A stretch of 64,000 bases of DNA, taken from positions 372,001 through 436,000 of the forward strand of contig FMBT01000294.1 of NCBI GenBank assembly GCA_900095095.1, read 5' to 3'. The notes below the pieces were generated by a model that ran no database searches, was not told where the DNA came from, and saw nothing but the letters and a program-made list of their open reading frames with translations. Shown here in pieces: positions 1 through 48,031 of this stretch (position 1 is its first letter; the number at the start of each line of letters is the position of its first letter). The DNA is from Fragilariopsis cylindrus CCMP1102. Lineage: Eukaryota; Bacillariophyta; Bacillariophyceae; Bacillariales; Bacillariaceae. A program made the translations under genes and the position numbers.

Positions 1-1239
1 CACAGTGCCAAAAAGCTCACATGTCAGACTTTAGCGGACTTTGGGTGCAATCCAATTTCAACAATTTTTCGAGTGGGCTGGGATTTGCGATCAGTACATA
101 CACTTTTTGACTATATTGTGGGATCCAAGGTACTTGATGAAAAAGCGGGTAGGACTCTCAGTGGTTGGTACAATGTATCGCACGGATCTGGTGATAGTGG
201 TGGTCTGCCACCCAACATTGATGATGCACTTGCTGGATTACCTTCACCAGATTACGAGAATCAGAAAACAGAAATTTTGCTGCTAGGCAAAACCCTATTT
301 GCTGGCACTACTACTCTCGATCAAAAGGTTCTATTGCTATTACTAGGAGCGTTATTCAAGCATTGGAATGCCATGATTGACTGTTATGAAGAGGATCCCG
401 AACAACACCCAATTGTGTTCGCGGTGACTAATGCTCTCCACGCTACCAACATTTCACCCTCTTCGTTTAAATTCTGGTGTGACAACACCGAGGACAATTT
501 TAAACTGAAGAATTTACAAGGTTTACCAGTACGGCAGATACACGAACTTCCAGGCGACGCACTTATCGATGTTAGAACCTTCCGTCATTTCATTGATTCT
601 TACAAATCTTCGATGTGTCACATGATACGCGAGACCGCTATCATGAAGACCTCCTTTGTGAAACTGCTAGATGAATTGAAGAAATCCCCGCGACCATGTC
701 AGCCAGAACATGATAATAATAAGGAAAATGCTCCCCGCGTGGAACAAATCAGTACGTCCACCACCACCGCCCGCAATGAACAGGTTGTTGTAGACACCGG
801 ATCTCCAGTTTCACAAATGAGCTTCACCCGCTGGTATGAAAAGTTCAGAGTCCACAAAAATTGCATTGAAGTATTCCTTCATTTTCATATTTACAACCTA
901 GAGGGGGGACACCTAGTGGATCTGGTGAAGCAGAAGGAAAAATTTTCAACTGTGGCACCCGGCGATGAGCAGGCCAAGGATCGTATTAAAAAAGCAAATA
1001 AGGATTGGAACAACAGATACCACAAACATATAACCGTCTTTGCTGAGTTGCAATTCCTTCTTGGTCCAATGGATCCATGTCCTACAGATGTTTTTGCAAG
1101 ACGAGAATGGGAGACTCGCATCACCACTAAACTGATGGAAATATTTAAAGATCGCATGGGTGGTTCAGACAAGATTGCATCGATGAACAATATTATGGCG
1201 TGGCATTCAAAAAGAAAGAAGCAATCATTGCTAAATTAG
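1..1239 (+). CDS. Unrecognised protein, 5'-truncated by window edge
   Basis: The frame is open from the first base of the window to the TAA at 1237-1239. No stop lies upstream of the GTG at 73, so the true start is outside the window and at least 412 codons are coding. The N-terminal part contains a motif near GWDLRSVHTLFDYI. It is followed by a mixed alpha-type region, a Ser/Thr/Asn-rich linker at about residues 235-290 and a basic C-terminus (SKRKKQ). I recognise no family. The gene has no visible introns. It is convergent with the zinc-finger gene that ends at 1369, with a 129-bp gap. It belongs to the block of intron-free unknown ORFs in the first 14 kb. A GTG start at 73 is unlikely for a eukaryotic nuclear gene. 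Confidence 0.6.
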   Translation, partial: HSAKKLTCQTLADFGCNPISTIFRVGWDLRSVHTLFDYIVGSKVLDEKAGRTLSGWYNVSHGSGDSGGLPPNIDDALAGLPSPDYENQKTEILLLGKTLFAGTTTLDQKVLLLLLGALFKHWNAMIDCYEEDPEQHPIVFAVTNALHATNISPSSFKFWCDNTEDNFKLKNLQGLPVRQIHELPGDALIDVRTFRHFIDSYKSSMCHMIRETAIMKTSFVKLLDELKKSPRPCQPEHDNNKENAPRVEQISTSTTTARNEQVVVDTGSPVSQMSFTRWYEKFRVHKNCIEVFLHFHIYNLEGGHLVDLVKQKEKFSTVAPGDEQAKDRIKKANKDWNNRYHKHITVFAELQFLLGPMDPCPTDVFARREWETRITTKLMEIFKDRMGGSDKIASMNNIMAWHSKRKKQSLLN

Positions 1240-1368
1240 TACTGACTATTAACTACTTATATTCACCTGCAACCAGAATGTCGATGCGTGCTCAAATTGG
1301 GTTGCCGAAGAAAAATTAAAAAAACGACGAAAGTGCTAGTAATTTAAAAACCGTTTTCTATATCTTTT

Positions 1369-2088
1369 TTACATGTATCCGATTATACTGTTTTTACTTG
1401 AGTCCATCTTTGCTCGGCTCCTGGTATGTATTTGATTTCTACCTTCACGTTTCCCGCCTCCGATTGTTTTTTCGTTGCACTCTTTTCTTTTTGGTGTTTC
1501 CGATTTATTGTGTATGTCGTGCCCCGTCCTTTCCGACATATTGTTGTTTATTTGGTTGTATTCTTCCGCACAGATATCTTGCAATTCATTAGTATCCTCC
1601 GTATGGTCGGATGCCAGAACGATGCCTGTTTCATTATTTTTATTAATATCTGTGTTTGGCCACCCGTCGAGTTCCATCGTTCCCACGTAATCCACACCAT
1701 CTCCCATCCAAAATGTTGCATCGCCCTGTGGACTTATTTTGGCTGGTAGAGGACCATCTTTCTTCAGAGTTGATTCGGTCACAATCGGTTTATGTGCTGT
1801 TTTCATGGATCCAACCAGCTTTTCTTGTGGGTGGATTCCCGTGCATTTTTTGCTATGTTTATAAACCCCGCTATACGAAGCACAAGTTTTCCCGCAGCAA
1901 GCGCATGTTAATGTTAAATTTGAAATCGAGAGTGGATGAAAGTATTTCACTTCTAACACTCCCAATCTTCCTGCCTCTATTTGTACCTGATGTGCATATC
2001 CCTGCCTCAATTTCTCACGTTCCTCTGACCCATACTCCAATGGGCATCCCATAATTTCATTATTATAGATTTGTTGGTATTTTGGCAT
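1369..2088 (-). CDS. Unknown protein with a C2HC zinc-finger-like motif
   Basis: This is a 239-codon intron-free frame with an ATG at 2088. Residues about 60-82 contain a Cys-x2-Cys-Gly-Lys, then His-x4-Cys pattern (CACCGKTCASYSGVYKHSKK, then C), which fits a single C2HC zinc finger with a basic helix. The C-terminal third is hydrophilic and rich in Lys, Arg, Glu and Asn, with possible nuclear localisation clusters. A role in nucleic-acid binding is inferred from the finger only. The gene is convergent with the truncated ORF on its left and divergent from the ORF starting at 2623. Family unknown; coding status is moderately supported by length and by the ordered zinc ligands. Confidence 0.5.
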   Translation of the reverse strand: MPKYQQIYNNEIMGCPLEYGSEEREKLRQGYAHQVQIEAGRLGVLEVKYFHPLSISNLTLTCACCGKTCASYSGVYKHSKKCTGIHPQEKLVGSMKTAHKPIVTESTLKKDGPLPAKISPQGDATFWMGDGVDYVGTMELDGWPNTDINKNNETGIVLASDHTEDTNELQDICAEEYNQINNNMSERTGHDIHNKSETPKRKECNEKTIGGGKREGRNQIHTRSRAKMDSSKNSIIGYM

Positions 2089-2622
2089 GTTGTATCTGTT
2101 CCCGTATCCTGTATGTTGAAGCCCCTGTTGAATTTGTGTTCAGTCCTCTTTCCTTGGATATCGTTTTTAATATTCCTGCTTCTGTTGTTTTTTTAAGTGT
2201 TGTCTATTTTCAAAAATACCGTTCGCCAAAAACCAGCAACGAATCATTTTCTGGATCCTCATATTTTTTGTGTATTTGAAATTTTCAAATCCGATTCCGT
2301 TCAACGGTTTTTTATTATTAACCCGCCTTCCAACGTTATTTTTGACCCAATGTTAACCGTTCTTACCCAATGCCAACCGTCATTTATAGTGATTCCCATG
2401 GGTTCCTACGGCAACCACTGAAATTCCTTCATTGCAGCACGTGTGCTTTTGGGTTGCACCCAGGTCCAACGGTATTTCCAACCACTGCCAACTCGGATTT
2501 TAATTGTATCGTAGCACACATAAGTTTGTACATGTTGCTGGTTGTACCCACATCCTCTTCTCACAATTACCATCCATACTCATTAACACCTCCCCCCGAT
2601 ACGAAAAATTGATTTCCTGACG
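2089..2622. promoter_or_regulatory. Shared upstream region of two divergent ORFs
   Basis: This is a 534-bp gene-free spacer between two head-to-head start codons. It contains a short imperfect direct repeat around 2350-2390 (acccaatgttaaccgtt followed by acccaatgccaaccgtc). No certain TATA box or other site can be named. Its length is close to the 520-bp spacer between the other divergent pair at 7994-8513. Confidence 0.35.
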
Positions 2623-3495
2623 ATGAGTTCTATTTCAAGCAAGGACAATAATACCCAACATCCTCTCGATGATGCCGATCCGCTGGTTTATTCAAATAGG
2701 AAGGAATTGCGCCGCCAAATGTCCCTTCACACTACAATCCAGTTGGAGAATGAACTAAAACGTTCTAATATCTCCGTTCCCCACCAAAAATATTTGGCGG
2801 CCGAGTTATCATATCGTAAGGAAGATCCACCACCTGGTAAGGGTTACGATGACTATGATAGCGACGATGGCGGACCACTGGAAGATGTTAGGTCAACATT
2901 GCACCATCTGGACAGAAAATTCAGCAGGTTTCGATACAATCGTCAAAAGGCTCTGCTTGCCAAAGCCGTCAAGGTTCCAGTTCCCCCTCGCTCCAAGATG
3001 AAACGTTCTCCAGTCGTTCCTTTAGGTGAGTCTCCACGCGATTCTCCTCTTGATCCTTCTGGCCCAAAACTCGATCAGTGCAGCAATGATTCTACTGCAC
3101 TCAAAGCATGCGGCACTTTCCATGCTGCAACTGCTGCTTTGATCCCACCAAAATCAACTACCTCGATTGCAAGCGGTAAGAAACGCAAAAAAAAACCATT
3201 AGGAAGAGTACAATTGAGATCAAAACGCGGTTGTCAGGTAATTCCAATGGCACCGGCGTACAAAAAGCATCTCAGAGGAACCCGATTCGACAAATTTATT
3301 GGGGAGCCGAAAAACAAAAAAAATCCCGAAGAGTACAATACCGACGACCTTGATGAAGAGCGGAAACGCGATGCGGATGATGAGATGTATGCCCGGCACG
3401 ATTATGAGGTTCACATTCGATTAAAGAAGCACTTCGATGATATCGACCGGAACGGTCATCAATTATACAACGAAGATGATGCGGATTTTTATTAA
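2623..3495 (+). CDS. Unrecognised charged protein, 290 aa
   Basis: This is an intron-free frame from the ATG at 2623 to the TAA at 3493-3495. The protein is strongly charged and probably largely disordered. It has an N-terminal helical stretch with KELRRQ and LENELKR, a Gly/Asp-rich hinge (GKGYDDYDSDDGG), a Pro/Ser-rich centre with SP motifs, a lysine cluster (KKRKKKP) that could be a nuclear signal, and an acidic C-terminus. I recognise no domain. It is divergent from the zinc-finger ORF, and a 21-bp tandem repeat starts 5 bp after its stop codon. Confidence 0.5.
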   Translation: MSSISSKDNNTQHPLDDADPLVYSNRKELRRQMSLHTTIQLENELKRSNISVPHQKYLAAELSYRKEDPPPGKGYDDYDSDDGGPLEDVRSTLHHLDRKFSRFRYNRQKALLAKAVKVPVPPRSKMKRSPVVPLGESPRDSPLDPSGPKLDQCSNDSTALKACGTFHAATAALIPPKSTTSIASGKKRKKKPLGRVQLRSKRGCQVIPMAPAYKKHLRGTRFDKFIGEPKNKKNPEEYNTDDLDEERKRDADDEMYARHDYEVHIRLKKHFDDIDRNGHQLYNEDDADFY

Positions 3496-3500
3496 TTGTT

Positions 3501-3563
3501 TGCTTGCCTACCGTAACTGTTTGCGTGCCTACCGTAACTGTTTTCGTGCCTACCGTAACTGTT
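3501..3563. repeat. 21-bp tandem repeat, three copies
   Basis: The units at 3501-3521, 3522-3542 and 3543-3563 share the core gcctaccgtaactgtt and differ at only a few bases near the unit start. They lie directly after the stop codon of the preceding ORF, so they would be in its 3' untranslated region. Confidence 0.9.
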
Positions 3564-3691
3564 CCATGCTCGCTTGTACCCGTACCCTATTTTAAGTTAG
3601 TAAAAATTACACGTTAACCATTGTTAGTAGCATTTTCAGAAGTTCCACCCTGTAGGTTGTTACCTGTCGCCTGAACGTATCGCAATCGCAC

Positions 3692-5955
3692 CCAGGTATC
3701 GGGTATAATTGAAAGTTGCACCACACACAATAACCCAACCCACATGGATGAAATACCATCCTTTATACATGTTTTATTAACTCTACTATATGTGATTTGA
3801 ATGTATTTTCCACCAATTCTACTGGGTAAATACATGAATTTACTAGTCGTGTGCCAGTGGATTGTATAGCACATTTGTACCAAGAAATGAAGGTAATGGT
3901 GGTAATGGTAACATTGATAGTGGTTCCACACACTAGAAGCCAACCCACATGGATGTAATACCATCCTGTATACATGTTTAATCTACTCTATGTGATCTGA
4001 ATCTATCCCAACCAACTTTACTAAGTAAATACATGTATTTACTGGTTGTACCCCTAGGTTTTGGCATAATTTTACCAAAAATGAAGGTAATGGTAAAATT
4101 GAAATGGTTCCACACACAACAACCCAACCCACATGGATGAAATACCATCCTTTTTGAATGTTTAAACAATTCTATGTGATTTGAGTGTATTCCAACCAAC
4201 TCTAATAAGCAAAACCAAGTATTTATGTTCTTTACCAGCAGATTTTAGCACATTGTACCAAATATGGATGTAATGGTAACATTAGATAGTGGTTCCACAT
4301 ACTAGAACCCCACTCACCTGGATGAAAGACCATCCTGTATACATGTTTAATCAATTCTATTTGTTTTGGATATGTTCCAACCAACTCTACTGAGCAAAAT
4401 CATGAAATTTCAGACAATACCTGTAGATTTTAGCACATTTTACCCAAAAATGGATCTCATAGTATAATTGAAAGTGGTTTCACAAACTAGAACCCCACCC
4501 ACCTGGATGAAATAGCATCCTGTGTACATGTTTCAACATTTTTTATGTGCTCACCAACTCTACTATGCAAATAAACATCCACACTAAGTCAATAAATGTA
4601 TTTATGGTCTTTACCAGCATGTTTGGGTATATTTTTACCAGAAATGGATCTAATAGTATAATTGAAACATGTTCCACACACTAGAACCCAACTCACATGG
4701 ATGGAATACCAGCATGTACACATGTTTCAACATTCCTATGTGATTTCTGTGTAGTCCAACCAACTCTACTAGGTTAATACATGTGTTTACTTATTCTAAC
4801 ATCAGATTTTAGCACATATATTACTCCAAAAATGGATCTAATAGTATAATTGAAAGTGGCACCACACACAATAACCCAACCCACATGGATAAAATACCAT
4901 TCTTTATGAATCTTTAAACAATTCTATGTGATTTGAATGTATTCCAACCAACTCTACTAAGCAAATAAACAGTTATACTAGTTAAATCCATGTATTTACT
5001 GCTTGTACCAGCATTAGCACATTTAACAAAAAAATGAATGTAATAGTATAATTGAAAGTGGTTCCATATACTGGAACCCAATCCACATAGATGAAACAGC
5101 ATCCTGTATACATGTTTTATCAAATCTATGTGGTTTGAATGTATTCCTAGCAATAAATTTCAGTACATACATGTATTTAGTAGTTGTACCTGCAGATTTT
5201 GGCGCATTTCACCAAAAATGGATCTAATAGTACAATTGAAAGTGGTTCCACATACTAGAACCTAACCCACATGGATGAAATAGCATCATGTATGCATGTT
5301 TAATCAATTCTAGGAGGGTTGGATGTGTTCCAACCACCTCTACTGAGTACATACTTGCATTTACTGGTTGTACCACTAGATTTTAGCACATTTTACCCAA
5401 AAATGAATGTAATAGTATAATTAAAATGGGTTTCCCATACTAGAATCCAACCCACATCAATGAAATAGCATCATGTATGCATGTTTAATCAATTCTAGGA
5501 GGGTTGGATGTGTTCCAACCACCTCTACTGAGTACATACTTGCATTTACTGATTGTACCACTAGATTTTAGCACATTTTACCCAAAAATGAATGTAATAG
5601 TATAATTAAAATGGGTTTCCCATACTAGAATCCAACCCACATCAATGAAATGTCTTCCTGTATACATGTTTAATCAAATCTATGTGGTTTGAATGTATTC
5701 CTACCAACTCTTTTGAGTACAAACATGTATTTAGTGGTTGTACCAGCAGATTTTAGCACATTTTACCCAAAAATGGATCTAATAGTACAATTGAAAGTGG
5801 TTCCGCATACTAGAACCCAACCCCGCATGAATGAAATAGCATCCTGTATACACGTTTAATCAATTCTATGTGGTTTGGATTTGTTCCAACCAACTCTACT
5901 GAGTAAATGAACATAATATCTATACTAAGTAACTAAATGTGTATTTATTGGTTCC
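3692..5955. repeat. Satellite array, ~190-bp unit, about 12 copies
   Basis: The landmark cacatggatgaaatacc, or a close variant, recurs near 3743, 3947, 4130, 4315, 4500, 4693, 4883, 5093, 5270, 5450, 5638 and 5825. The spacing is therefore 177-210 bp. Each unit also holds the phrases tagtataattgaaagtggtt, accaactctactgagtaaat and tagcacattttaccaaaaat in the same order. Units are diverged except that the segments at about 5281-5437 and 5467-5625 are nearly identical, indicating a recent duplication of one unit. Short open frames inside the array look like by-products of the repeat and I do not call them genes. Confidence 0.92.
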
Positions 5956-6166
5956 ACTAACGGTAGAACGACAGTGATGCCTATGTATATGTATGTATAT
6001 ATGGATGGTGATTCGTTGGTGATGATATGATTATAAATAGAACAGGGTAGGTATGTATGGATAACTCCTGTTCGGTGATGTCTCGTGTGTTTTAGAATAG
6101 TGTGTTGGTATTTGATAGAATATCGGATTGGATTGATGACTCTATGGAGATGGTTTACTTGCCGCT

Positions 6167-7993
6167 TCAGACGTAGCGGGTACTATCATTTTCTTCGGAT
6201 GTTGAATCACCTTCCGTGTCTTCTTCCGATCCAACTTCCAGGGCAGTTTCTTTGCTACTGCCGTTGTTCATCGCAGGAAGTTTGGCTTTGTCGCCGTCCA
6301 TGGATGAAGTCCGCTTGGCAGTCTTTTCTTTTCCATCAGGTGAGACAATTGGGGCTGCGGCTGATGTTGTGACAGCCTGTTCTGCCTTCCTTTTTTTATC
6401 GTTCTCTTTTTTTTCTCCTATTTTGTTGGCATGTAATTTTCCCGCCTTGATATATGCTTGCGCCGACTTTGCGTGCCCTGTTGGTCGAGCGTCGCGAATG
6501 TCGGGGATGCTTCTGTTTTCCAGAATGGCCCTTGCCACTGTTCCAAGGTAGTATTTTTGTGTCCTGGTGTGATCTTCTTTGAGGATGAGCATGTCTTCCT
6601 CTACCATTTTTTGCAGAGCTATCTTCACGTTGTTGTTACCTGCTTTGCACCCTAACAGTGCTTCGAGTTCGACTAGTGAGAAGAAAATCGGAAAATCGAC
6701 GAAGATGCATAGGATGCCTTCTACTTCGGGTCGCACTAGTCCGTTGTCGCAATACCAATCCTGAAATTTGAATCCTTCTTTCATTGTGAAGATCAATGCC
6801 TTTTTTAAATTTCTGCGTCCCTCGCTGATGGTTATCTCGTTGGAATTTGCTAGTCGTGCTGTTTCCATCGCTGCTTTGAGCTCGACGTCCTTCTTGGAAG
6901 TTCCTGCGACGGCTGCCTCATACGAACTTTGGGCTTCATCAAGTTCGGTCCGTAGTTTCTCCAATGATGGAGAGTGTTCCTTGATAGAGTTGATAATTTT
7001 CTCGATAGCAGACTGTGCCGTAGTAAGCTCCACCTGAAGTTTGTTGATGTTGGTTTTGGCACGTGTATGTAGTACCACTGATCCATCAACGACTACCTTG
7101 TATGAGTGTAATGATGCTCTTACATTTTCGAGATCTTTTTCGAGGTCGTTGAACCTGTTGGTAGTATCGCCTCTGGCTGCTTTGTACTTTGTTGAGGCTA
7201 CTGCTTGTTGGACCTGTAGATTCGTGAGAACTGAAGGAAGTTCGTTGATGTTACCGTAGATGGTCGTGATATTAGACGATGATTCAGCGATTTCTTTTTG
7301 TAGGGTGTCAATGTGGGTCTTAGCGGCTGTATGTAGTTCCTCTACTTTGGTGGTTGTCTCCGCGAATTTATCGTAAATATTTTGTGCCTTGACGTCTAGA
7401 TCCTCATCGATGATGTTCAGTGTTGCTAGTTCGGATGTTAATCGCTTGACTACGCTGTCCTTCTCGACAGCCTCGGGAATGGTGGGTTCCTTGGTATTCC
7501 ATAGTGCGTTGACTTTCGTCATTGCTGTTTTGTTGGAATCCGTAGTCTCATCGTCGGCTGAACACAGGGTTTTTCGAAAATCATCATTCAACCCGGTCAT
7601 CTTTTTTTCTCTACCACTTCCTCGTTCGAGGAACCCGTGCAGTATCAACAACTCTATGGATGTCTTTAATACAGGGGATGCACTCGCCGAGGCTACATTG
7701 CCCCCCCGGGCACGGGAACTATTTCCATAGAAGCCTGGACGCTTGAACGCATCCACAAGAAGCATGCATGCACATTTGGAACACGACCGAGGATACACAC
7801 CTGGTTTATCAGATAGTTTCCACCAGTTAAGATAGTCTTTGTCATGTAATGCCTTGATGATTTGGGCTGCATCGGCTATATAATTACCCGGACGAAGTTT
7901 TTGAAGTTGAGAAATGCCATCCGCGGTCCATGCCGTTTCGATGATGTCTTGGCAATCTTTTTTTCGCTCTTTATAAAAACGATCGTCGGACAT
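6167..7993 (-). CDS. Unrecognised coiled-coil protein, 608 aa
   Basis: This is an intron-free frame with an ATG at 7993 and a stop at 6167. It has three parts. Residues 1-165 are globular and contain CSKCACMLL and a helical stretch SIELLILHGFLERG. Residues about 170-400 are rich in Ala, Glu, Lys and Thr with heptad-like spacing, consistent with long coiled coils. Residues about 425-505 include VKIALQKMVEEDMLILKEDH followed by a basic/aromatic strand (RTQKYYLG), which looks like a winged helix. The tail is basic then acidic (KKENDKKRKAEQ; SEEDTEGDSTSEEND). A chromatin or DNA-associated role is only a guess. It is divergent from the 143-residue ORF. Confidence 0.55.
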   Translation of the reverse strand: MSDDRFYKERKKDCQDIIETAWTADGISQLQKLRPGNYIADAAQIIKALHDKDYLNWWKLSDKPGVYPRSCSKCACMLLVDAFKRPGFYGNSSRARGGNVASASASPVLKTSIELLILHGFLERGSGREKKMTGLNDDFRKTLCSADDETTDSNKTAMTKVNALWNTKEPTIPEAVEKDSVVKRLTSELATLNIIDEDLDVKAQNIYDKFAETTTKVEELHTAAKTHIDTLQKEIAESSSNITTIYGNINELPSVLTNLQVQQAVASTKYKAARGDTTNRFNDLEKDLENVRASLHSYKVVVDGSVVLHTRAKTNINKLQVELTTAQSAIEKIINSIKEHSPSLEKLRTELDEAQSSYEAAVAGTSKKDVELKAAMETARLANSNEITISEGRRNLKKALIFTMKEGFKFQDWYCDNGLVRPEVEGILCIFVDFPIFFSLVELEALLGCKAGNNNVKIALQKMVEEDMLILKEDHTRTQKYYLGTVARAILENRSIPDIRDARPTGHAKSAQAYIKAGKLHANKIGEKKENDKKRKAEQAVTTSAAAPIVSPDGKEKTAKRTSSMDGDKAKLPAMNNGSSKETALEVGSEEDTEGDSTSEENDSTRYV

Positions 7994-8513
7994 TGTTTGG
8001 TTTGATAGAGTGAACTTTTTAATTGTATTGCAAACAAATAATATTATGGATTGTGAGAACCGAAACGCAAGCTTGATCTAAACTTGTACCTGCAGCACAT
8101 CAATTCCCCACAGTACAACCGTGGTATTGTTTGACTAAATCGACGTTCGTAAACCCGTGTAAAGGTTGGTTAGAAAATGATAGCAATATCGTGGAAGCCA
8201 TTTAAGGTGTAAAGTAGATTGAAATATCAGTTGACAATGGAGTGCAAACGGCAGAACCTTTTTTGCTGCAGCGTGTTAATTCCGATTTTGTTATTTGGCC
8301 TCCAACTTAGTGTACCCACGGTGGCCACCATCGACGAACTATCATCAATCGTTCAAATTTTGTTCGTGGCCATCATCCACCGTGGTACTGCTTGATGCCC
8401 AACGTCGCCATCGCCATCGTTAGTTTGTTACAACTCGAAGGCACAATCACAATCATACAATTTAGGTTCTGGACTGTTGTTGACACAACATAAACACTGA
8501 CACTTATCTCATC
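7994..8513. promoter_or_regulatory. Shared upstream region of second divergent ORF pair
   Basis: This is a 520-bp spacer between the start codons of the 608-residue and 143-residue ORFs. It holds the first copy of a direct repeat of about 85 bp (8385-8471) and, around 8310-8385, a stretch with ggtggccacc-like and tggccatc-like inverted segments. No individual promoter element can be assigned with confidence. Confidence 0.35.
8385..8471. repeat. Direct repeat, copy 1 (~85 bp)
   Basis: The sequence from gtactgcttgatgcccaacg to atacaatttaggttctg reappears at 9047-9127 with a small indel and several substitutions. The two copies flank the 143-residue ORF and each lies just upstream of a start codon region. 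Confidence 0.85.
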
Positions 8514-8945
8514 ATGAATATTTCTTACTACTCCTTAGGCAACAAGAACGATTTAAAACATGATGGACTGACCATGGTGACGATGAACGATGGTGAAATG
8601 GGTCTTATGATGTTCAAATCCCCGATAGATTCTTTTCGGTACAACGATAAGTGCATTGCTTTGAAAAGAGAAATCGCCGCATTCAACAAAAGATTTGAAG
8701 ATGGAAATGTGGGGAAGGATGATTACTGCAAAAACGTTGCCAAATGGTGTAGCCACGTGCTCGATTTTGCTACCGAATGGGGTCCTCATCGTGTGCCATT
8801 CGATATTCGTGATGGTTACAATGACTGCATGAGCAACATTGGTGGTACACGCACAATCATTTGGCCAGACAAAATACCTATCCCAATGAGCGAGTTGCCT
8901 GCTGAAACACTAAACGCAGTATTCGCCTCATACACCGTAATTTAG
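8514..8945 (+). CDS. Unrecognised small protein, 143 aa
   Basis: This is an intron-free frame from the ATG at 8514 to a stop at 8945. The protein appears compact and soluble, with no signal peptide, membrane segment or low-complexity run. It has four Cys in total and several Trp, including WCSHVLDFATEWGPHRVPFD and RTIIWPDKIPIPMSELP. This regular composition supports a real gene although I recognise no family. It is bracketed by the two copies of a direct repeat of about 85 bp, which suggests that a cassette was duplicated with its upstream region. Confidence 0.5.
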   Translation: MNISYYSLGNKNDLKHDGLTMVTMNDGEMGLMMFKSPIDSFRYNDKCIALKREIAAFNKRFEDGNVGKDDYCKNVAKWCSHVLDFATEWGPHRVPFDIRDGYNDCMSNIGGTRTIIWPDKIPIPMSELPAETLNAVFASYTVI

Positions 8946-9046
8946 TCATACGTATATAAATAATAGGTAATAGTTTTAATAAATTTAAATCCTACCAATA
9001 CAAATAGCCATAGTATAGCGAAGAATCCTCCTGTTTTGGGAATGTA

Positions 9047-9127
9047 GTACTGCTTGATGCCCAACGTTGCCATCGTTATTTTGTTACAAGTTGAAGGCAC
9101 GATCACGATCATAGAATTTAGGTTCTG
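9047..9127. repeat. Direct repeat, copy 2 (~81 bp)
   Basis: This is the second copy of the sequence at 8385-8471, starting gtactgcttgatgcccaacg and ending atagaatttaggttctg. It lies upstream of the small ORFs at 9330-9808. Confidence 0.85.
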
Positions 9128-9160
9128 TGTTTTCCACCTACATGTGGTTGTCGTGACAAT

Positions 9161-9192
9161 GGGATCCCATGGGATCCCGTTTTTTATATAAA
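9161..9192 (+). promoter_or_regulatory. 18-bp perfect palindrome next to a TATA-like box
   Basis: GGGATCCCATGGGATCCC at 9161-9178 equals its own reverse complement. It is followed within 10 bp by tatataaa. The arrangement resembles an operator or core-promoter region for the small ORFs downstream. Function is inferred. Confidence 0.4.
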
Positions 9193-9329
9193 CGGACAAA
9201 CCTGCACCCGCCGTTACAATTCCGCCCTACATTCGCCACCATTCGCCATACATTCAAAATTACAAACTAGTACGAGAAGCGATAGGTTCGTGGCCCAATA
9301 TGTTCACATTAGAATAAATCTTTTGGAAA

Positions 9330-9808
9330 ATGGTGGATAAGGAAACGATTTATGTTGAGGGCGACGGCAGGTACCACATGTCCTTTTTTGCTTTATCCTC
9401 TAACTTTCGATGCAAAGTAAGGACGGCAGATACCAAGTATGTTGCTATCCAGTCAATGGTACCCATTATGGAGAATATCTTCATCAAGTAAAAGTAGTGG
9501 AGTGGAGCAACAACCCATTATTTTATAACATTCAATGCAAAGTGAGAACGGCACATACCAAGTATGGCACCATCGAATCCATTGCATTGCACCTGTTCTA
9601 CAATACCAACAAAGAATTATTGACAATGGACATTTCTAGGCACAGCAGTACTAGCAAGGAGAGATCAAGAAAGTTGCACAATGCAGTAAGTACTGACAAG
9701 GAGATAAAGAAAAGTGCACAATGGAATATGTACGCAGAAGAATACCTATCTAAATGTAAAGAACAGATTTGTGATAAAGAATATTTTTTTAAACAGTTAG
9801 GAGCATAA
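9330..9808 (+). CDS. Two overlapping small ORFs with an internal duplication
   Basis: One frame runs from the ATG at 9330 to a TAA at 9489-9491 (53 codons). A second runs from the ATG at 9410 to 9808 (132 codons). The DNA around 9403-9450 (tgcaaagtaaggacggcaga) is repeated around 9535-9575 (tgcaaagtgagaacggcaca). In matching frames the two copies read CKVRTADTKY and CKVRTAHTKYGTIES. This looks like a locally duplicated gene whose first copy has lost frame with the second, or a spliced gene whose intron I cannot place. Product unknown. Confidence 0.35.
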
Positions 9809-9861
9809 ATTTTATATAACATAAATACGTAACGGAAACATTGGTGCGTGAGTTCCTCCAT

Positions 9862-12800
9862 TTAAAACGAAAAGGCAAGGCTCGATTTTTTTTGAATCAA
9901 TGGAAAAGCAGCCATAATACGATCGGCTACATCATCAACCAACAATTCACCCAAGGAGGGAAAGTTCGAAGTGGTGGTCCAAAGTGAGTTGGCGAAAATC
10001 TGGTTGGCAATGTCGGAAGGTGCTACGTACATCCCTCCTACCAATTCCCATTCGTTGCACAAATAATTGGAATCCAGTGGAAGCAATTCTCCATCTGGAA
10101 ACGAAATTGACAGTGAGGACTGTCCCTGCACAAGTAGGACCTCATCCACTCTATGGACATCCACAAAATGGGAATCGGAACCATTTGGAGAAAGTATACG
10201 GAAGACCTTGCACATTACATTCTCCAATATAGAATACGTCCACCATTCACGAATACGATGCTCAAAGAAGGTTTGAATTGTAGTCATGGTGCATCGCCCC
10301 GGTTCCTTACTCCACTTGAGTTCAGGGTAGCGTCCTTGGAAGAATTCCAACACACGACCACTGATGGGAGCATAATCACGAATCCAATCAGGAACACAAC
10401 CAAAATAAGACAAAACAGCAAATTGATGTTTTGCTTGCAGCGGACCCAATCCATATGTTGTATCCTGGTAAAGTTTGGAGCAGGACTCGTATACACCACT
10501 AATCGAGGCCAAATTAGGTTTGGCAGGAGCAAGAATCCAGATCCCCATTATCACAGCAAGTTTGTTCCGAGTTCTTTCAATCCAGTCAGATTCATTGGGG
10601 ATATCGGATTCTTCTGTCTCTAATTTCCTGTAGGTGTTGTATCGAAATAGGGCTAGTTTCTTCCTCTTCCCACCCGGCGAAGTGTTATTGGCATAGAAGC
10701 GATTGCGTAAACGGAGCATATTCAATGCGATAAATCGACCAATCAACCAAGGATCACCTTCAAATTGAATTCTTCCACGAACAAGTTCATCCACCGCCAG
10801 GTCGTAGAAATATGCACAGTTTGGGATAACGTCCATACAGATCAGAGAACTGATGAGCATGGGCAGTGTAAATCGAAACTTGTCGACCATACGGGACGTA
10901 GAATGCACAAATAAAGAATGAAAACCTAACCAAGGTGCAAAAATTAGATCAACAATATCATATGAGGGAGGAGCAGCAATGAAGGAGGGGTGAGTACAAC
11001 AGATAGCTTTGTTTTCATTAGGAAAAAAGAATAGAGATGCAAACGTACCTAGGGGGTTCAGGTTGCAAGGAACCGAAACATGATGCCTGTCAATAACAAT
11101 GCCTTTCTTTGTGTATACCGCTAATGTTTCCGGATCCATATGCTTGCGATCGTCCGGAAACTGCGAGTAAACTTGGAGCAATTCATCGAGCATGGGAGCA
11201 TTTTTCGCCTTTCGAAGAATTGCATCAGAAATACTTTTGCGAAAATAACCAGTCGCACCCACACGTACATCTTCCACCCATTTCGACGCACCAACAACCA
11301 ACGACAATTGATCATCATCACTGCAATCAGGATTGTTTACATCTCTGTGGGAAGCACATGGGTTTTTGGGGGAGGAGCCGTGAATGGTTGCTCCCTCAAT
11401 CTCATTCTTCTCGGCAATTGCCTCAGCGTATTCCTTACGCGCTGGATCAGCTTCGTAACATGCCCAGGGGGGGAGGTCCGGCAACTGTAAAATAGACGAC
11501 AGACCCACAAATATATGCTGGGAAAAGGCAGAATTGGTTCCTTTTAATAGGTTCGGAACGGAGGAGCCGGATTCATCACGACGCATACATGTATTGGTGG
11601 CGTACCCGTACGACACTCGTGTATGATCCTTTTGCCTGGTACATCCGTGAACATCCTTTGGATTTACTGTAGATACATGTTTGTGCATGGTGTCAAAATC
11701 CAATGAATCAATCACAGAGGCCACAGATTGTTTTTCATTCAACACCATACAAAATGAATTTTTATGGTTGCGATGATTGCGGTAGAAATGTACTGGAACA
11801 TCGGGAGCTAACGTCGTACGAAGAAATGAACTCAACTTTTCTTGACGAACTTGTAGATGGTCGATGGTGGTAAGTTGTTTGAAAGCATACACTTGACCTG
11901 CTTGGCGATCTTCAATAACATGAGCCTCATCTTCTGTGTAAGCCACCAGGTAAAGGCCTTTGGGGCAGTTGGAAGAACTCCAGAAAGCAGCATCAGCACG
12001 GTGAACTTCTGAAACTCCATCGTCAAAATCATCATCACCTGAACCCGACTCGAGTACAATCACGGACTCGTCATCGTATAAATCTTCATCAAGGTGATCA
12101 TCTTCGGAGTCATCCATACTTGAATTGTTGTTGTAATCCGAGTCGGCCGTGGATTCATTAGAGCGTGCAACAGCACCACCACCAACACGAGCAGCACCTG
12201 CACCGGGAACAAGGGAAATGTAACGAGACTGAGCCTTCAGTGTGGGGCGGCGACGAGAGGAGGTCAAATCAATGATTTCACCGTCCTCGGTACTACATTC
12301 AGAATCACTAGTCGAATTACCAGATGAATCATCATCCGAATTATCAAAAGAATCATCTGGAAAATTGTTAGATGTAGGAACGGATAATGGTGGAGATTTA
12401 CGGCGACTTGAACTTGAACCAAGGACTGTACTTGCGGTAGATAGACGGCGAGCAGAAGTAGGAACAGATAGTGGTGGAGATTTACGGCGACTTGAACTTG
12501 AACCAAGGACTGTACTTGCGGTAGATCTGGTAGATGTACGGCGACTTGAACTTGAACCAAGGACTGTACTTGCGGTAGATAGACGGCGAGCGAAAGTAGG
12601 AACAGATAGTGGTGGAGATTTACGGCGACTTGAACTTGAACCAAGGACTGTACTTGCGGTAGATAGATGGCGAGCGAAAGTAGGAACAGATAGTGGTGGA
12701 GATTTACGTCGACTTGCACCATGGACTGTACTTGCGGTAGATGTACGGCGGCGAGCGGTAGTAGGAACAGATAGTGGTGGAGATTTTCGTCGACTTGCAC

Positions 12801-14127
12801 CATGGACTGTACTTGAGGTAGATGTACGGCGGCGAGCGGTAGTAGGAACAGATAGTGGTGGAGATTTACGTCGACTTGCACCATGGACTGTACTTGCGGT
12901 AGATGTACGGCGGCGAGCGGTAGTAGGAACAGATAGTGGTGGAGATTTACGTCGACTTGCACCATGGACTGTACTTGCGGTAGATGCGGTGGATGTACAG
13001 CGAGCAGAAGCAGGTGGCTGAATTGGGGATTTTTTGCGGGGAGGTGCACCAGACAAATCACATGAAAAATCACCAGCCGAATCACATGAAAAATCACCAG
13101 TCGAATCGTCGTCATCCTCACTGTCGCCACTATATGGCGATCTGTCTTGCAAGTTGGGCATCGATCCAGCATCGTCGTCGTCATCCTCACTGTCGCCACT
13201 ATATGGCAATCTGTCTTGCAAGTCGGGCATCGATCCAGCATCGTCGTCGTCATCATCTGTATCGTCATCATCATCACCATGGTCATCATGATCAAAATCA
13301 TTGAAAGTTTCGTCATTGTTGCGACTGATTGTAGGACAGTCCTCTCTACCGAGTTTACGCACCGTACGTCTAGAGGTAGGAGAAGAAAGTGGCGGAGATT
13401 TACGGTTAGCACGGCGGCGAGCAGCACCAGGTGGCTGAGCTGGTCGAGATTTACGGCGGGTAAAATCAAAGTCTAAACTTGTGGTAGATCTACGGTGAGC
13501 AGCAGCAGCAGCAGGTGGCTGCATTGGGGGAGGTTTGCGGCGAGCAACACCATGGGATTGAGTTGAAGTGGAAATAGGAGAACCAAGATAAGATTGACCA
13601 ATTTGGTGGAATGGTGGTAATGAATCAATAAGGTCTTGTCTGGGTAGGTGCCGGTTGCGGCGGGCTGGGTGAAGTTCCGGTGAGGAAGTAAAAATTGAAT
13701 TGGATGAGATTGAAGACCCAGCATACGTTGTATCGTAGAATGACATATCATTATTCTGTTCATCACGTTGTTCAATGGTGGGTTGGATGTTGTGACGCTG
13801 GTACAACAGTAAATCAGGATTGTTGACAGAGTTAGAATCAAACGGATTAACGGCTTGTTTGATGTCTCGGTGGCGACTGGAAATAGATGGGTAGTGTTGA
13901 TGGTGATAGGAAGTACGGCGGTAATGAGGAGAAGCAGAAGAAGGGGTAGTAGGAAGTGACATCATACTGTCATGGTCAAGGTGATACCGAGTATCGTAGG
14001 GCAATTCTGGGGCGGTCGAATCCGAAGTAGGCATCCCCTTCGAAGAAGGAGCGGTACTTCGACGTTGACGACCCAGAGATTGGCGCCGAGAGCTTGACTT
14101 AGTGTGCTTGTGTTGTTTCCTTAACAT
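9862..14127 (-). CDS. Unrecognised 1421-aa protein with RRKSPPLSVPT repeats
   Basis: This is an intron-free frame with an ATG at 14127 and a stop at 9862. The N-terminal half is disordered and basic, with many RRKSP motifs. Two acidic repeats of the form DDDDDAGSMPxLQDRxPYSGDSE follow, and then seven copies of RRKSPPLSVPT separated by Ser/Thr/Arg linkers. A second acidic zone precedes the last 700 residues or so. That last part is globular, begins near KGLYLVAYTEDEAHVIEDRQ and shows no low complexity. It contains no motif I recognise: no DDE or YREC catalytic set, no helicase P-loop and no polymerase motif. It converges on the small ORFs ending at 9808. It may be phosphorylated at SP sites, which is an inference from sequence. 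Length and a clean frame make it very likely coding. Confidence 0.75.
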   Translation of the reverse strand: MLRKQHKHTKSSSRRQSLGRQRRSTAPSSKGMPTSDSTAPELPYDTRYHLDHDSMMSLPTTPSSASPHYRRTSYHHQHYPSISSRHRDIKQAVNPFDSNSVNNPDLLLYQRHNIQPTIEQRDEQNNDMSFYDTTYAGSSISSNSIFTSSPELHPARRNRHLPRQDLIDSLPPFHQIGQSYLGSPISTSTQSHGVARRKPPPMQPPAAAAAHRRSTTSLDFDFTRRKSRPAQPPGAARRRANRKSPPLSSPTSRRTVRKLGREDCPTISRNNDETFNDFDHDDHGDDDDDTDDDDDDAGSMPDLQDRLPYSGDSEDDDDDAGSMPNLQDRSPYSGDSEDDDDSTGDFSCDSAGDFSCDLSGAPPRKKSPIQPPASARCTSTASTASTVHGASRRKSPPLSVPTTARRRTSTASTVHGASRRKSPPLSVPTTARRRTSTSSTVHGASRRKSPPLSVPTTARRRTSTASTVHGASRRKSPPLSVPTFARHLSTASTVLGSSSSRRKSPPLSVPTFARRLSTASTVLGSSSSRRTSTRSTASTVLGSSSSRRKSPPLSVPTSARRLSTASTVLGSSSSRRKSPPLSVPTSNNFPDDSFDNSDDDSSGNSTSDSECSTEDGEIIDLTSSRRRPTLKAQSRYISLVPGAGAARVGGGAVARSNESTADSDYNNNSSMDDSEDDHLDEDLYDDESVIVLESGSGDDDFDDGVSEVHRADAAFWSSSNCPKGLYLVAYTEDEAHVIEDRQAGQVYAFKQLTTIDHLQVRQEKLSSFLRTTLAPDVPVHFYRNHRNHKNSFCMVLNEKQSVASVIDSLDFDTMHKHVSTVNPKDVHGCTRQKDHTRVSYGYATNTCMRRDESGSSVPNLLKGTNSAFSQHIFVGLSSILQLPDLPPWACYEADPARKEYAEAIAEKNEIEGATIHGSSPKNPCASHRDVNNPDCSDDDQLSLVVGASKWVEDVRVGATGYFRKSISDAILRKAKNAPMLDELLQVYSQFPDDRKHMDPETLAVYTKKGIVIDRHHVSVPCNLNPLGTFASLFFFPNENKAICCTHPSFIAAPPSYDIVDLIFAPWLGFHSLFVHSTSRMVDKFRFTLPMLISSLICMDVIPNCAYFYDLAVDELVRGRIQFEGDPWLIGRFIALNMLRLRNRFYANNTSPGGKRKKLALFRYNTYRKLETEESDIPNESDWIERTRNKLAVIMGIWILAPAKPNLASISGVYESCSKLYQDTTYGLGPLQAKHQFAVLSYFGCVPDWIRDYAPISGRVLEFFQGRYPELKWSKEPGRCTMTTIQTFFEHRIREWWTYSILENVMCKVFRILSPNGSDSHFVDVHRVDEVLLVQGQSSLSISFPDGELLPLDSNYLCNEWELVGGMYVAPSDIANQIFANSLWTTTSNFPSLGELLVDDVADRIMAAFPLIQKKSSLAFSF
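12380..13010 (-). repeat. In-frame coding repeats in the 1421-aa gene
   Basis: Repeat units of about 75-110 bp encode RRKSPPLSVPT plus a variable Ser/Thr/Arg linker. There are seven copies of the 11-residue core, in two linker classes: HGAS with TTARRR, and LGSSSS with ARRLST. Long antisense and alternate-frame ORFs here are by-products of the repeat. Confidence 0.85.
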
Positions 14128-14537
14128 TGCGTTGATTGTACAGTAAATGTAAATTATGACAGTGTGAAGCGGTACCCAAAAGGAGAATCAATCGGTGTGT
14201 TTTGCGTGTAAATGTAGGAAGAAATAGTATAATGAGTGTTCACTACCCTACAAACGACGTAAAATGGGTGCACCAACTGATGAATCAAATGAATTTACAG
14301 GAAAACAGCGAAAAACAGCGAAAAACAGCGAGTTAGTTAGTTAGAGCGCACGCAGGGCGTGTGTAACGTATACATATTCACTCACTCAGTGAGGTGTCCA
14401 GTCGATCGCAGAACTCGCTTAAACAACGCGCTTGCTTAGGGTGCTAGCAAAAACACCATGGTATTTACAGGAAAACAGCGAGTAAGCGATGGAATTTACA
14501 GTACAACAGCGAGTAAGCGAGTTAGTTAGCACATCGA
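14128..14537. other. Upstream region of the 1421-aa gene
   Basis: There is no gene here. It contains three tandem copies of a 10-11-bp unit (aaaaacagcg) at about 14299-14330 and two related segments, atttacaggaaaacagcgag and atttacagtacaacagcgag, near 14462 and 14493. Confidence 0.6.
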
Positions 14538-16130
14538 TAATTATTGGTGACGGACGCGAACACATGACGTCGTCGGGAGGTTAGTTGCAAGGATATACAG
14601 GCATTTATACAGAGAATAACATACCCCCTTTGGAATTGATGCGATCGGTTCGATCATCGATAATTATTGGTGACGGACGCGAACACATGACGTCGTCGGG
14701 AGGTTAGTTGCAAGGATATACAGGCATTTATACAGCGAATAACATACCCCCTTTGGAATGGATGCAATCGGTTCGATCCTACTGATCGATCAAGAAATGA
14801 AGCTCGATTTCGAAGTAGTTATCAAAGATGTCGAGAAATAACTAGTAGTTTGCTAGTACAAACATAATTGAATGCTGTCAATCAAATGAGCAACACTTAC
14901 TCGCGTCTCGTACGGATCGATCAAGAAATGATGCTCGATTTCGAAGTAGTTATCAAAGATGTCGCAAAATAACTAGTAGTTTGCTAGTACAAACATATTT
15001 GAATGCTGTCAATCAAACGAGCAACACCAACGAATCAATAACAGATCAAGGAGACGCGTCTCGTACGGATCGATCAAGAAATGATGCTCGATTTCGAAGT
15101 AGTTATCAAAGATGTCGCAAAATAACTAGTAGTTTGCTAGTACAAACATATTTGAATGCTGTCAATCAAACGAGCAACACCAACGAATCAATAACAGATC
15201 AAGGAGACGCGTCTCGTACGGATCGATCAAGAAATGATGCTCGATTTCGAAGTAGTTATCAAAGATGTCGCAAAATAACTAGTAGTTTGCTAGTACAAAC
15301 ATAATTGAATGCTGTCAATCAAATGAGCAACACTTACTCGCGTTGTATTGGTGACGGACGCGAACACATGACGTCGTCGGGAGGTTAGTTGCAAGGAAAT
15401 ACAGGCATTTATACAGCGAATAAAATACCCCCTTTGGAATTGATGCAATCGGTTCGATCCTACTGATCGATCAAGAAATGATGCTCGATTTCGAAGTAGT
15501 TATCAAAAATGTCGATAAATAACTAGTAGTTTGCTAGTACAAACATAATTGAATGCTGTCAATCAAACGAGCAACACTTACTCGCGTTGTATTGGTGACG
15601 GACGCGAACACATGACGTCGTCGGGAGGTTAGTTGCAAGGAAATACAGGCATTTATACAGCGAATAAAATACCCCCTTTGGAATTGATGCAATCGGTTCG
15701 ATCCTACTGATCAATCAAAAAAATGACGCTCGATTTCGAAGTAGTTATCAAAAATGTCGATAAATAACTAGTAGTTTGCTAGTACAAACATAATTGAATG
15801 CTGTCAATCAAACAAGCAACACCAACGAATCAATAACAGATCAAGAAGACGCGTCTCGTACGGATCGATCAAGAAATGAAGCTCGATTTCGAAGTAGTTA
15901 TCAAAGATGTCGAGAAATAACTAGTAGTTTGCTAGTACAAACATATTTGAATGCTGTCAATCAAACGAGCAACACTTACTCGCGTTGTACTCGCGTCTCG
16001 TACTGATCTGATCGATTGAAAGAAATGAAGCTCGATTTCGAAGTAGTTATCAAAAATGTCGAGAAATAACTAGTAGTTTCCTAGTACAAACATATTTGAA
16101 TGCTGTCAATCAAACGAGCAGCACTTACAT
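14538..16130. repeat. Composite array of A (~117 bp) and B (~145 bp) units
   Basis: The A unit (ttggtgacggacgcgaacac to cggttcgatc) occurs four times, starting near 14538, 14667, 15348 and 15593. The B unit (gatcgatcaagaaatgatgc to gtcaatcaaacgagcaacac) occurs eight times, starting near 14783, 14914, 15068, 15221, 15465, 15708, 15861 and 16006. Some B units carry an insert (caacgaatcaataacagatc) that creates a 150-bp period. The order is A A B B B B A B A B B B, so blocks of A+B were duplicated as well as B alone. Frames inside the array stay open only because units of 150-156 bp keep the phase. Confidence 0.9.
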
Positions 16131-16194
16131 CAGAAACATTTAATTAGAGGCATTTTCATTTGCGTCTAATAGAAATGAACTTCTTAGTGCTAAA

Positions 16195-16470
16195 GTGATT
16201 TTTTTACTTAGGGGTTCGTGTTAATCTCAGTTCAATGTGTACAGCGAAAATTTATTATTTTGGTCCAAAATTCGTACTTTTCAAAAGTGATTTTTTTTTT
16301 ACTTAGGGGCTCGTCTTAATCTCAGTTCATTGTGTACAGCGAAAATTTATTATTTTGGTCCAAAATTCGTACTTTTCCAAAGTGATTTTTTTTTACTTAG
16401 GGGCTCGTGTTAATCTCAGTTCATTGTGTACAGCGAAAAATTCGAACTTTTCAAAAGTGATTTTTAAACT
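16195..16470. repeat. ~95-bp tandem repeat, three copies
   Basis: The units start near 16195, 16286 and 16381 with gtgatttttttacttagggg. They continue through ctcgtgttaatctcagttca and tgtacagcgaaaatttatta to a segment ending acttttcaaaag. The third copy is shortened. The array directly follows the A/B array. Confidence 0.88.
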
Positions 16471-17157
16471 AGTCTTCACAGTGCGCCTCCCTTTTCTTTT
16501 CGTGTAGAAGAAATGTAATTCTGAGTGCTTTTTCAGACCCGTGAAACAAAAATGAACAATCACGAAATGCGTTGGAAATCTTTTTGTGTCGTGTGGTGGT
16601 GTAACTGTGATTTCGCAGACACGATTGAAGGAGGAAAATAAGTCGTGAAGGGACTCTAAACTTGGCGGGGAAAAATGTATTTTTGGTGATGCATTCGGAC
16701 ATGCCCCCCAAAAACTAAGTTGGACTGCGCGCGCAGTGGACAACCCTTGAGCAACCTCGTCTCCTGAAAATAATTTGAAACCACCCTCACCCGTTTTACA
16801 GTAACGTTAGTAGTTAGTACGTAGCTAGCACACAAGAATATTGAAATCACGCCGGACTGTCAAAAAATTTGCTTCATTTTGTTTTTAGGCACGCGATCAA
16901 TTTGAAATTTGAAAAAGACGCATTATTACACACGAAATGAAATCCTCCCTGTTTTGCTGTCGTGTTGTTTGTGTTCGCTTTCTTACGGTAACAACTTAAA
17001 GCAAATAATAATTCTACAGGAGTGAGAATAGTCGACTGCCTACTCTTACTTGAACTACAGTACACTGTAGTAGAAATATATATATATAATAATATATATC
17101 ACATAGGAAATAGCTCAATAAATACAGTGCAAGTGGGCAAAATACGTCGACCCAACG
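16471..17157. other. Gene-free region upstream of separase
   Basis: About 690 bp hold no convincing gene. The antisense frames at 16393-16743 and nearby have biased, non-protein-like composition. The last 100 bp include an AT-rich run (atatatatataataatatat) that may be part of the separase promoter. Confidence 0.4.
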
Positions 17158-43044: not shown

Positions 43045-43338
43045 AAGCTGGTTAGGTAACATCGTCGAAGCAGAACATTGCAACATACATAAATGGAATA
43101 GGAAACTAGTAGAATAAGAATATGGGGTGGGGGTGTATAGACAGGGCTATACTATACAGCATGCTGGATACTCTACGCACATATTTATTCATTAGTCCTG
43201 CGAAAGAAACTAAATGTGGCAGTATATTTCAGCACATAAATTTGTCTATCGCTTGTAATTAATGTTAGTTTCAACTACGTACTGCGATTTATGATTATTT
43301 CGATCCCGATTATAATTGATATTAAAGAACACTTACTT

Positions 43339-47744: not shown

Positions 47745-48031
47745 GAGGAAACGAATAGAATATTCGAGAAAACATATCAGAAGCATAATGATTCCTGTTA
47801 GGATGATACTGTTGATACTCTTCTATTTACTTCTTACTGTTTCTTTTGTAACTACAATGTACTAGAAACGACTTTCGTTCTTAGACAAGAGATAGTTATG
47901 ATACAAAGGTCTTGATTAAAAATGATTCAGTGGATACATTACATTTTATAATTTATATCAAAATAATTACTATATTAGTATTTTGAAACTGTTGTATCTC
48001 CCGCGTCACTATTTTATTTTAAAGCTGCAGT

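Follow-up and report, generated by a model that had tools for sequence, protein, structure and literature searches.

The stretch of DNA analysed here (the window) comprises 64,000 bp of contig FMBT01000294.1 of the diatom Fragilariopsis cylindrus, positions 372,001 to 436,000, and the contig is abbreviated as C89 below. Its left part carries a block of open reading frames and tandem repeats (Table 1). A sequence-only reading had placed the limits of this block at window positions 1 and 14,127 and had counted six sizeable ORFs. Neither the limits nor the gene count is supported. The unit can be followed from C89:371050 (951 bp to the left of the window) to about window position 16,700 (C89 ~388704), a length of no less than about 17.7 kb. 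Five ORFs are longer than expected by chance, namely A, B, C, D and F, all of them open in the window; the window contains just the 3' part of A, whose full ORF (729 aa) lies at C89:371050-373239. In 200 first-order Markov simulations of 14,127 bp, the longest chance ORF averaged 125 aa with a maximum of 204 aa, a length surpassed by the ORFs of F (1421 aa), D (608 aa), C (290 aa) and B (239 aa), while the two ORFs of E, E1 (143 aa) and E2 (132 aa), fall inside the simulated range. The divergent spacers were measured as claimed (534 bp for B/C and 520 bp for D/E1), and convergent neighbours do face each other across short gaps (129 bp for A/B and 53 bp for E2/F). Mirrored pairs, however, do not hold as a defining feature, since the second pair has a doubtful partner in E. 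The block does not lie between satellite arrays: the 185-bp array sits inside it, and the stretch scanned to the left of the block, C89:365000-371100, contained just short simple repeats.

Table 1. Features of the block, in window coordinates
Feature	Position	Strand	Basis
A, tyrosine-recombinase-like gene, 3' part	1..1239 (ORF in window 73-1239)	+	ORF, motif spacing, place relative to B
B, 239-aa protein with zinc-finger-like motif	1369..2088	-	ORF, motif by eye
B/C divergent spacer, 534 bp	2089..2622		measured
C, 290-aa protein	2623..3495	+	ORF, C299 relative
185-bp satellite array, 10.7 copies	3895..5907		repeat scan
LINE-derived segment	5963..7539	-	DNA match to C360 LINE copy
D, 608-aa chimeric protein	6167..7993	-	ORF, C299 and LINE comparison
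D/E1 spacer, 520 bp	7994..8513		measured, C299 alignment
E1 cassette; ORF 8514-8945, 143 aa, +	8389..9120		direct repeats versus C299
E2, 132-aa ORF, coding status doubtful	9410..9808	+	DNA kept in three copies
F, 1421-aa protein	9862..14127	-	ORF, common to all copies found
Tandem arrays upstream of F, periods 10 to 244 bp	14302..16439		partly common to C299 and C83
Right-end stretch, 82% identical to C83	16617..16700	+	final homology before host ORF at 17158

The proposed check for co-occurrence of the ORFs in the same order gave a positive result, with the full order A-B-C-satellite-D-E-F repeated on contig C299 and a shorter one, recombinase-B-E-F, on C83, each among different neighbours. 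On the right, the block is followed by a ThiF-family ORF (E 7.7e-34) on C299, by a long Pro/Ser-rich ORF on C83, and by an 858-aa ORF and two more ORFs on C89, where we take the gene at window position 17158 to be a separase. Flanking DNA is barely common to the three loci. The sole match between the left flanks is one of 86 bp between C299 and C89, which was dropped as a candidate left end because it has no counterpart on C83. The right-end stretch is missing on C299, and a 64-bp unit of the right end is present on seven other contigs. An array of the same family as the 185-bp satellite lies at the corresponding place on C299 and, among the at least 23 stretches found, this family occurs on C89 and C299 only. 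Between these two contigs B, C and D diverge strongly (25-46% identity), and further matches to B are found on C193 and C184. The copies differ in parts from one to another. Conservation elsewhere, whose absence had been named as a refuting outcome, does exist for B, C, D and F and is lacking for A, which has no sequence-detectable relative in the genome.

The ORFs had also been described as lacking recognisable domains. This stands for profile searches, where Pfam, PHROGs and NCBIfam gave no name to any protein of the block, but not for motifs read by eye, for which the tyrosine-recombinase tetrad and its spacing served as a reference. The recombinase-like genes of C299 and C83 lie beside B just where A does, in the same orientation, and their proteins, with an overall identity of 34%, are identical in the R, H-x-x-R, H and Y residues (H-to-H distance 26, H-to-Y 9). 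In A, H and W stand at the same distance of 26, the second motif reads H-x-x-K (K for R), and a phenylalanine (F) takes the place of the catalytic tyrosine, with a Y two residues later. With the spacing kept and K and F at two catalytic places, A may be inactive. The C83 protein has a weak PHROGs match to a phage integrase (E 0.064), located exactly on the motif stretch, and comparison of the C299/C83 pair with a DIRS recombinase yielded E 0.67; no meaningful match of the recombinase-like proteins was found in Pfam, NCBIfam or PDB. Comparisons of A with the C299 protein by BLASTP and with the other recombinase-like proteins by hhalign gave no significant similarity. DUF3435 was absent from the A, C299 and C83 proteins at E up to 0.5; scans of segments of these proteins at E up to 10 did not show it either, the single match being an unrelated one to SIP (E 0.25). 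Ten genome matches to the Pfam integrase family belong to one family, read as DIRS-like retroelements, and were rejected as not coming from the element.

B contains a motif C-x2-C-x12-H-x3-C, zinc-finger-like by eye and also kept in C299, with a saturated dN/dS, and C aligns over 327 columns with the ORF at C299:159006-160079 at 25% identity. D is composed of two parts: the first 150 or so residues are similar to D' of C299, and residues 157-608 correspond to a LINE ORF read in frame. The LINE-derived segment, 86% identical in DNA to a LINE copy on C360, includes these C-terminal 452 aa and about 200 bp of LINE 3' sequence; homology to C299 stops at window position 7562, and that to the LINE covers 7539-5963. 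By this comparison D is a chimera, its own N-terminal part being joined in frame to the ORF of a 5'-truncated LINE. The N-terminal part has two weak PHROGs matches to families of unknown function (best E 0.0066), and single-sequence structure prediction of residues 1-156 reached a pLDDT of 42; coiled-coil matches of D in the profile search were judged unspecific. Further to the right, window positions 7994-8482 are 79% identical to C299, and the E1 ORF sits between direct repeats at about 8389-8469 and 9041-9120, for which C299 has a single repeat and no E1. The DNA of E2 is conserved in all three copies (C89, C299 and C83). In the alignment, codon 4 of the C299 copy is a stop and indels between the copies break the frame, and E2 is not clearly coding. 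A single spliced gene made of E1 and E2 was considered and dropped after alignment of the copies.

F has a low-complexity N-terminal half and a conserved C-terminal half with H-x-D-x-N-N-P and a distant H; within the aligned piece, all three sequences have H221, D223 and H310. Purifying selection acts on the C-terminal half, where dN/dS ranges from 0.18 to 0.34: 0.22 for C89/C83, 0.23 and 0.18 for two pieces of C89/C299 and 0.34 for C83/C299; in both C299 and C83 F has frame breaks. From the H-x-D...H residues we infer a possible likeness to the iron/2-oxoglutarate dioxygenases. Dioxygenases usually have an arginine after the second histidine, which by eye on the alignment is missing in F. No Pfam family, TET/JBP included, was hit at E up to 10, and a PDB search at E up to 10 returned two matches, both to peroxisomal biogenesis factor 19. 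Single-sequence structure prediction of residues 707-1042 gave a pLDDT of 34.

The C83 and C299 copies carry in addition a small gene, G, whose start resembles the histone H3 tail. Taking the H3 tail sequence as the reference, G of C83, beginning with MARTKETARKST..., is close to it, and G of C299 shows a weak likeness (5/11). Some of its motifs we take to be SUMO-binding-like. G seems to have an intron, with lengths of 101 and 140 nt, the splicing being predicted, so the description of the block as intron-free applies to the ORFs of the window and not, it appears, to this gene of the sister copies.

Of the three options offered by the sequence-only reading (a large unclassified mobile element, an endogenised DNA element, a lineage-specific gene family), the first fits best, although not with the limits, gene count and mirrored pairs attached to it. 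With moderate confidence we interpret the block as the greater part of a large DNA transposable element of the diatom that carries several genes and exists in few copies. The gene order is conserved at three loci with different neighbours, the right flanks are related, and F is under selection; mobility itself is suggested by the dispersed copies. No empty site, target-site duplication or left end was found for the element, which counts against a mobile nature. On this interpretation, its left gene would encode a tyrosine recombinase for cutting and rejoining the element ends, as in a Crypton or a Starship captain. Gene A of the window copy is without the canonical tyrosine, and this copy may rely on others for the activity. 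The zinc-finger-like B, D and the arrays would serve in recognition of the element or in control of its expression, and F would protect it from host silencing. A LINE fragment was joined to gene D, the LINE ORF now forming the C-terminal part of the protein.

A clearly less probable explanation, though the strongest of the alternatives, is a giant CACTA/EnSpm-Plavaka (DDE) transposon that lost its transposase, F and the right-end arrays being of that kind, with a DDE transposase acting in trans and the recombinase-like gene as cargo. On C649 and C311 a distant F, 44% identical, is convergent to a transposase-like ORF, open over 1248 aa on C649, where we read by eye the presumably tnp2-like signatures WTDDF, ADRP, CPRC and D-x3-H-x-LFLGT-x-K; on C311, tandem arrays adjoin the start of F as well. 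Excerpts of the literature describe TET/JBP dioxygenases in fungal DNA transposons including EnSpm and Plavaka (PMC12730594), and giant families without transposase in Ectocarpus (PMC12477816). Against this, an 887-aa part of the C649 frame has no Pfam or PDB match, profile libraries gave no name to the partner ORFs on C311 and C649, none of the ORFs of at least 100 aa near F on C89, C299 and C83 matches the C649 frame, and the recombinase-like gene is found at the same place in all three. Also, no transposase family of Pfam was detected in the scanned proteins of the three blocks.

More speculatively still, F could define a new superfamily of diatom elements with an exchangeable recombination module, tyrosine-recombinase-like in C89, C299 and C83 and DDE-like in C649 and C311, and a kept anti-silencing kit (F, and G in some copies). 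F would then be an oxidative DNA- or RNA-modifying enzyme and G a mimic of the histone H3 tail with SUMO-binding-like motifs, so that host chromatin silencing would be attacked at two points.

We regard it as unlikely that the block is a decaying cluster of lineage-specific host genes which segmental duplication has spread and which is not self-mobile. The low copy number, the strong divergence of B, C and D and the restriction of the 185-bp array to two contigs are consistent with it, and an ancient duplication of this type is conceivable with just two full copies and a single short one known; the dissimilar flanking DNA of the three loci and the matches to B and F on four further contigs argue against it. 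An endogenised virus or polinton-like element, suggested by the size range, the block of lineage-specific ORFs and the endogenous giant viruses of Ectocarpus, reported in a paper in which tyrosine recombinases are often named (PMC13236599), is very improbable, given that no capsid, polymerase or packaging profile was found in Pfam or PHROGs (seven proteins in PHROGs) and that scans of viral contigs revealed no relative of F, A, the C299 protein, the C299/C83 alignment or the C649 protein.

The favoured transposable element can be compared with known systems from excerpts of the respective sources. CryptonS, which occur in oomycetes and the diatom Phaeodactylum, have terminal direct repeats of 5-6 bp, often with TATGG ends; the present unit, as candidate tyrosine-recombinase-type mobile DNA of a stramenopile host, resembles them, with an extra gene possible and inverted terminal repeats not seen (PMC3212892). 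In contrast, the unit described here has several genes more, a satellite within its body and arrays at the right end, and its recombinase-like proteins have no profile match to the Crypton recombinase. The Starships of Pezizomycotina fungi are large transposons of many genes with a leading tyrosine recombinase, and the unit is similar to them in that its recombinase-like gene is near one end of a body of several genes; it differs in its diatom host, its length of about 18 kb, the lack of a DUF3435 match and having most genes in common among copies, whereas Starship cargo is variable. The diatom nature of the host is borne out by matches to the silicon transporter family (best E 1.1e-226). As in the fungal TET/JBP transposons (PMC12730594), F, a candidate protein of the H-x-D...H type, has different recombinase-like genes as neighbours, but in a diatom and without a TET/JBP profile match or the usual arginine. 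The giant KDZ, EnSpm and Sola-1 transposons of Ectocarpus are similarly large and multi-gene, some without transposase, and nested insertions travel with them (PMC12477816); these are DDE elements, while the left gene of the diatom unit is tyrosine-recombinase-like. In the open-access literature searched, as far as its excerpts extend, no large multi-gene transposon led by a tyrosine recombinase was found for diatoms, the nearest being the CryptonS of Phaeodactylum. If confirmed, the element would extend the Starship-like way of moving genes to algae of major ecological importance, and would provide both a worked example of a LINE fragment that became, in frame, part of a gene of another element and a testable case of a mobile element possibly mimicking the histone H3 tail.

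The sequence-only reading had described six sizeable unknown ORFs in mirrored head-to-head pairs, perhaps an unclassified mobile element. Five of the block ORFs exceed chance: A (729 aa, including the portion left of the window), B (239 aa), C (290 aa), D (608 aa) and F (1421 aa) are longer than any ORF in 200 simulated sequences (longest ORF: mean 125 aa, maximum 204), whereas the small E ORFs between D and F (143 and 132 aa) fall inside the simulated range. The spacer sizes given there agree with the computed values; the satellite, a 185-bp array, sits inside the block.

Within the assembly (67.9 Mb, 818 contigs), of which the window is C89:372001-436000, the block has dispersed copies with differing modules. 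A whole-genome search gave 19 matching stretches for D, 10 for F and nine for B; A matched itself only, and the recombinase-like protein of contig C299 had three matches, on C299 and C83. The C299 copy (primed genes) is listed in the table, and C83, in reverse reading, carries a recombinase-like ORF of 1606 aa, then B, the E region (DNA of the small ORFs) and F, whose reading frame shifts near residue 62. The right neighbour is a ThiF-family ORF on C299, a Pro/Ser-rich ORF on C83 and, on the window's contig (C89), an 858-aa ORF which we take to be separase. Between C89 and C299, the E region and F together (5.3 kb) are 87% identical in DNA, the satellite about 69-78% and the beginning of D 73%; A, B and C were unaligned at the sensitivity used for this comparison; thus, parts of the block have diverged to very different extents. 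C and C' share 25% identity over 327 columns, B and B' a C-x2-C-x12-H-x3-C motif, and some further B matches, on C193 and C184, contain stops. E1, the first small ORF, lies between two direct repeats, and C299 has one repeat and no E1, as if a cassette had been gained or lost through recombination.

Coordinates of block counterparts and related features
Contig	Feature	Position	Strand	Remark
C299	recombinase-like ORF	154200-157358	+	1052 aa
C299	B'	157505-158131	-	
C299	C'	159006-160079	+	
C299	satellite	about 160641-163209		
C299	D'	163339-164814	-	
C299	E region	between D' and F'		conserved DNA
C299	F'	166026-170232	-	one frame change
C299	G	171916-172505	+	
C83	G	196739 down to 196114		
C193	B match	28839-29423	-	84% over B residues 1-101
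C184	B match	34609-34942	+	
C184	B match	126058-126321	+	
C311	LINE	118620-126579		
C649	F relative and convergent ORF	42595-51847		
C89	two piggyBac-like ORFs	window 55736-57819	-	by eye

The recombinase-like ORFs of C83 and C299 are 34% identical across their aligned part, with an identical presumed tyrosine-recombinase tetrad (C299/C83: R464/R1050, H657-x-x-R/H1231-x-x-R, H683/H1257, Y692/Y1266). One of the three recombinase-like proteins weakly matched a PHROGs integrase (E 0.064) from H-x-x-R to Y; other profile and sequence searches with these proteins gave nothing significant. The C299 and C83 proteins are probably tyrosine recombinases. A shows R173, H318-x-x-K, W344 (26 from H, spaced as in the counterparts), F at +9 and Y at +11, and the recombinase-like gene is alike in position, convergent to B across 129 bp (A), 146 bp (C299) and 72 bp (C83). 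A may well be their relative; its activity is doubtful. Outside the recombinase-like region, the C83 protein matches C44 (95%, residues 1-106) and C66 (41%, residues 525-657). The Pfam integrase family has ten matches in the genome, all one family resembling DIRS retroelements on reading.

D matches D' (72% DNA) from the upstream spacer to window 7562, and window 7539-5963, comprising the D end, its stop codon and about 200 bp past it, matches a LINE end, with 86% DNA identity to C360 and 66-67% over the ORF to five further LINE copies. By these alignments D is a chimera of its own N-terminal part and a LINE ORF, whose start aligns with D residue 157, a methionine. On the simplest reading, the acidic tail kept in D' would have been replaced by a 5'-truncated LINE copy; no target duplication was identified. 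The dN/dS of the LINE part against the C360 ORF is 0.90, and so there is no sign of constraint since their split; for the N-terminal part, compared with C299, the ratio is 0.63. The C311 LINE encodes a reverse transcriptase (E 1.9e-13), a weak RNase H match (E 0.004), an endonuclease-like ORF failing the cut-off (E 0.096) and, third in order and downstream of RT-RNase H, a 453-aa coiled-coil ORF. ORFs of this length also lie 3' of LINE coding sequence on C66, C809 and C712 and adjoin a short LINE remnant on C360. Relatives of the C311 LINE occur on C66, C527, C809, C712 and C766.

F is under selection, and its C-half is conserved, with dN/dS of 0.22 (C89/C83), 0.23 and 0.18 (C89/C299, two pieces) and 0.34 (C83/C299); residues 1-600 give 0.65 (C89/C299). 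All three F sequences compared, one of them 45% identical, keep H-x-D-x-N-N-P (x = V or G) and a second H 87 residues past the D. The motif resembles iron/2-oxoglutarate dioxygenases, which is a lead only, since no profile search agreed. TET/JBP dioxygenases travel on many fungal DNA transposons, according to an excerpt of PMC12730594. C649 and C311 hold a 41-45% F relative, interrupted by stops and convergent to another ORF, broken on C311 and open over 1248 aa on C649; by eye the latter looks like a CACTA/Plavaka-like transposase, with no library confirmation. These two contigs (98% identical) may be a haplotype pair. The host is a diatom by its silicon-transporter family, with 27 matched stretches in the genome (best E 1.1e-226; only one of 14 control genomes responds, none past the cut-off). 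Some of these stretches form pairs of similar score across two contigs (C581/C268, C90/C331), so both haplotypes may be partly present in the assembly.

On C299 and C83, the interval from F to the right end holds a small extra gene, G; none was seen in the window. With introns of 101 and 140 nt taken as spliced, its N-terminus reads MARTKA then DSGRKTPKPRTEAEQ... on C299 and MARTKE then TARKSTPKKKTEAEQ... on C83, the splicing being deduced from two predicted exons, with alternative acceptors possible. Against the histone H3 tail, the first 11 residues past the methionine agree at 10 positions in C83 and at just five in C299; the predicted N-terminus is thus near the H3 tail in C83 (MARTKETARKSTPKKK) and less near in C299 (MARTKADSGRKTPK). 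VDLT lies close to the C-terminus.

On the right side, tandem units are common to all three copies. The final shared stretch spans window 16617-16700 (C89:388617-388700) and has 82% identity with C83, where it ends at base 195716; no counterpart turned up on C299, where homology stops at about 172788. No inverted copy was found within the left-side stretches examined. The 64-bp right-end unit also occurs on C31, C518, C412, C337, C52, C335 and C81 and is therefore not exclusive to the block element; among the five of these seven contigs that were read, C81 and C335 (99% twins) have several units, and C31, C518 and C412 one each, adjoining ACTAGTGATTTTC-like repeats. Such units (AATTAGGGGCATTTTC) with ACTAGTGATTTTC-like repeats at other loci are possible further ends or non-autonomous relatives. 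Elsewhere in the window, two neighbouring ORFs resemble a piggyBac-type transposase.

An excerpt of PMC3212892 places Cryptons in one diatom species. In the open-access papers searched, titles and abstract openings revealed no larger tyrosine-recombinase elements of diatoms or other stramenopiles, and transposons mimicking histone H3 were not found. We infer movement, enzyme activities and anti-silencing as follows: a recombinase-like protein, from the same or another copy, would cut and rejoin the element ends, B and D would bind DNA, and F, together with G in the sister copies, would counteract host silencing.
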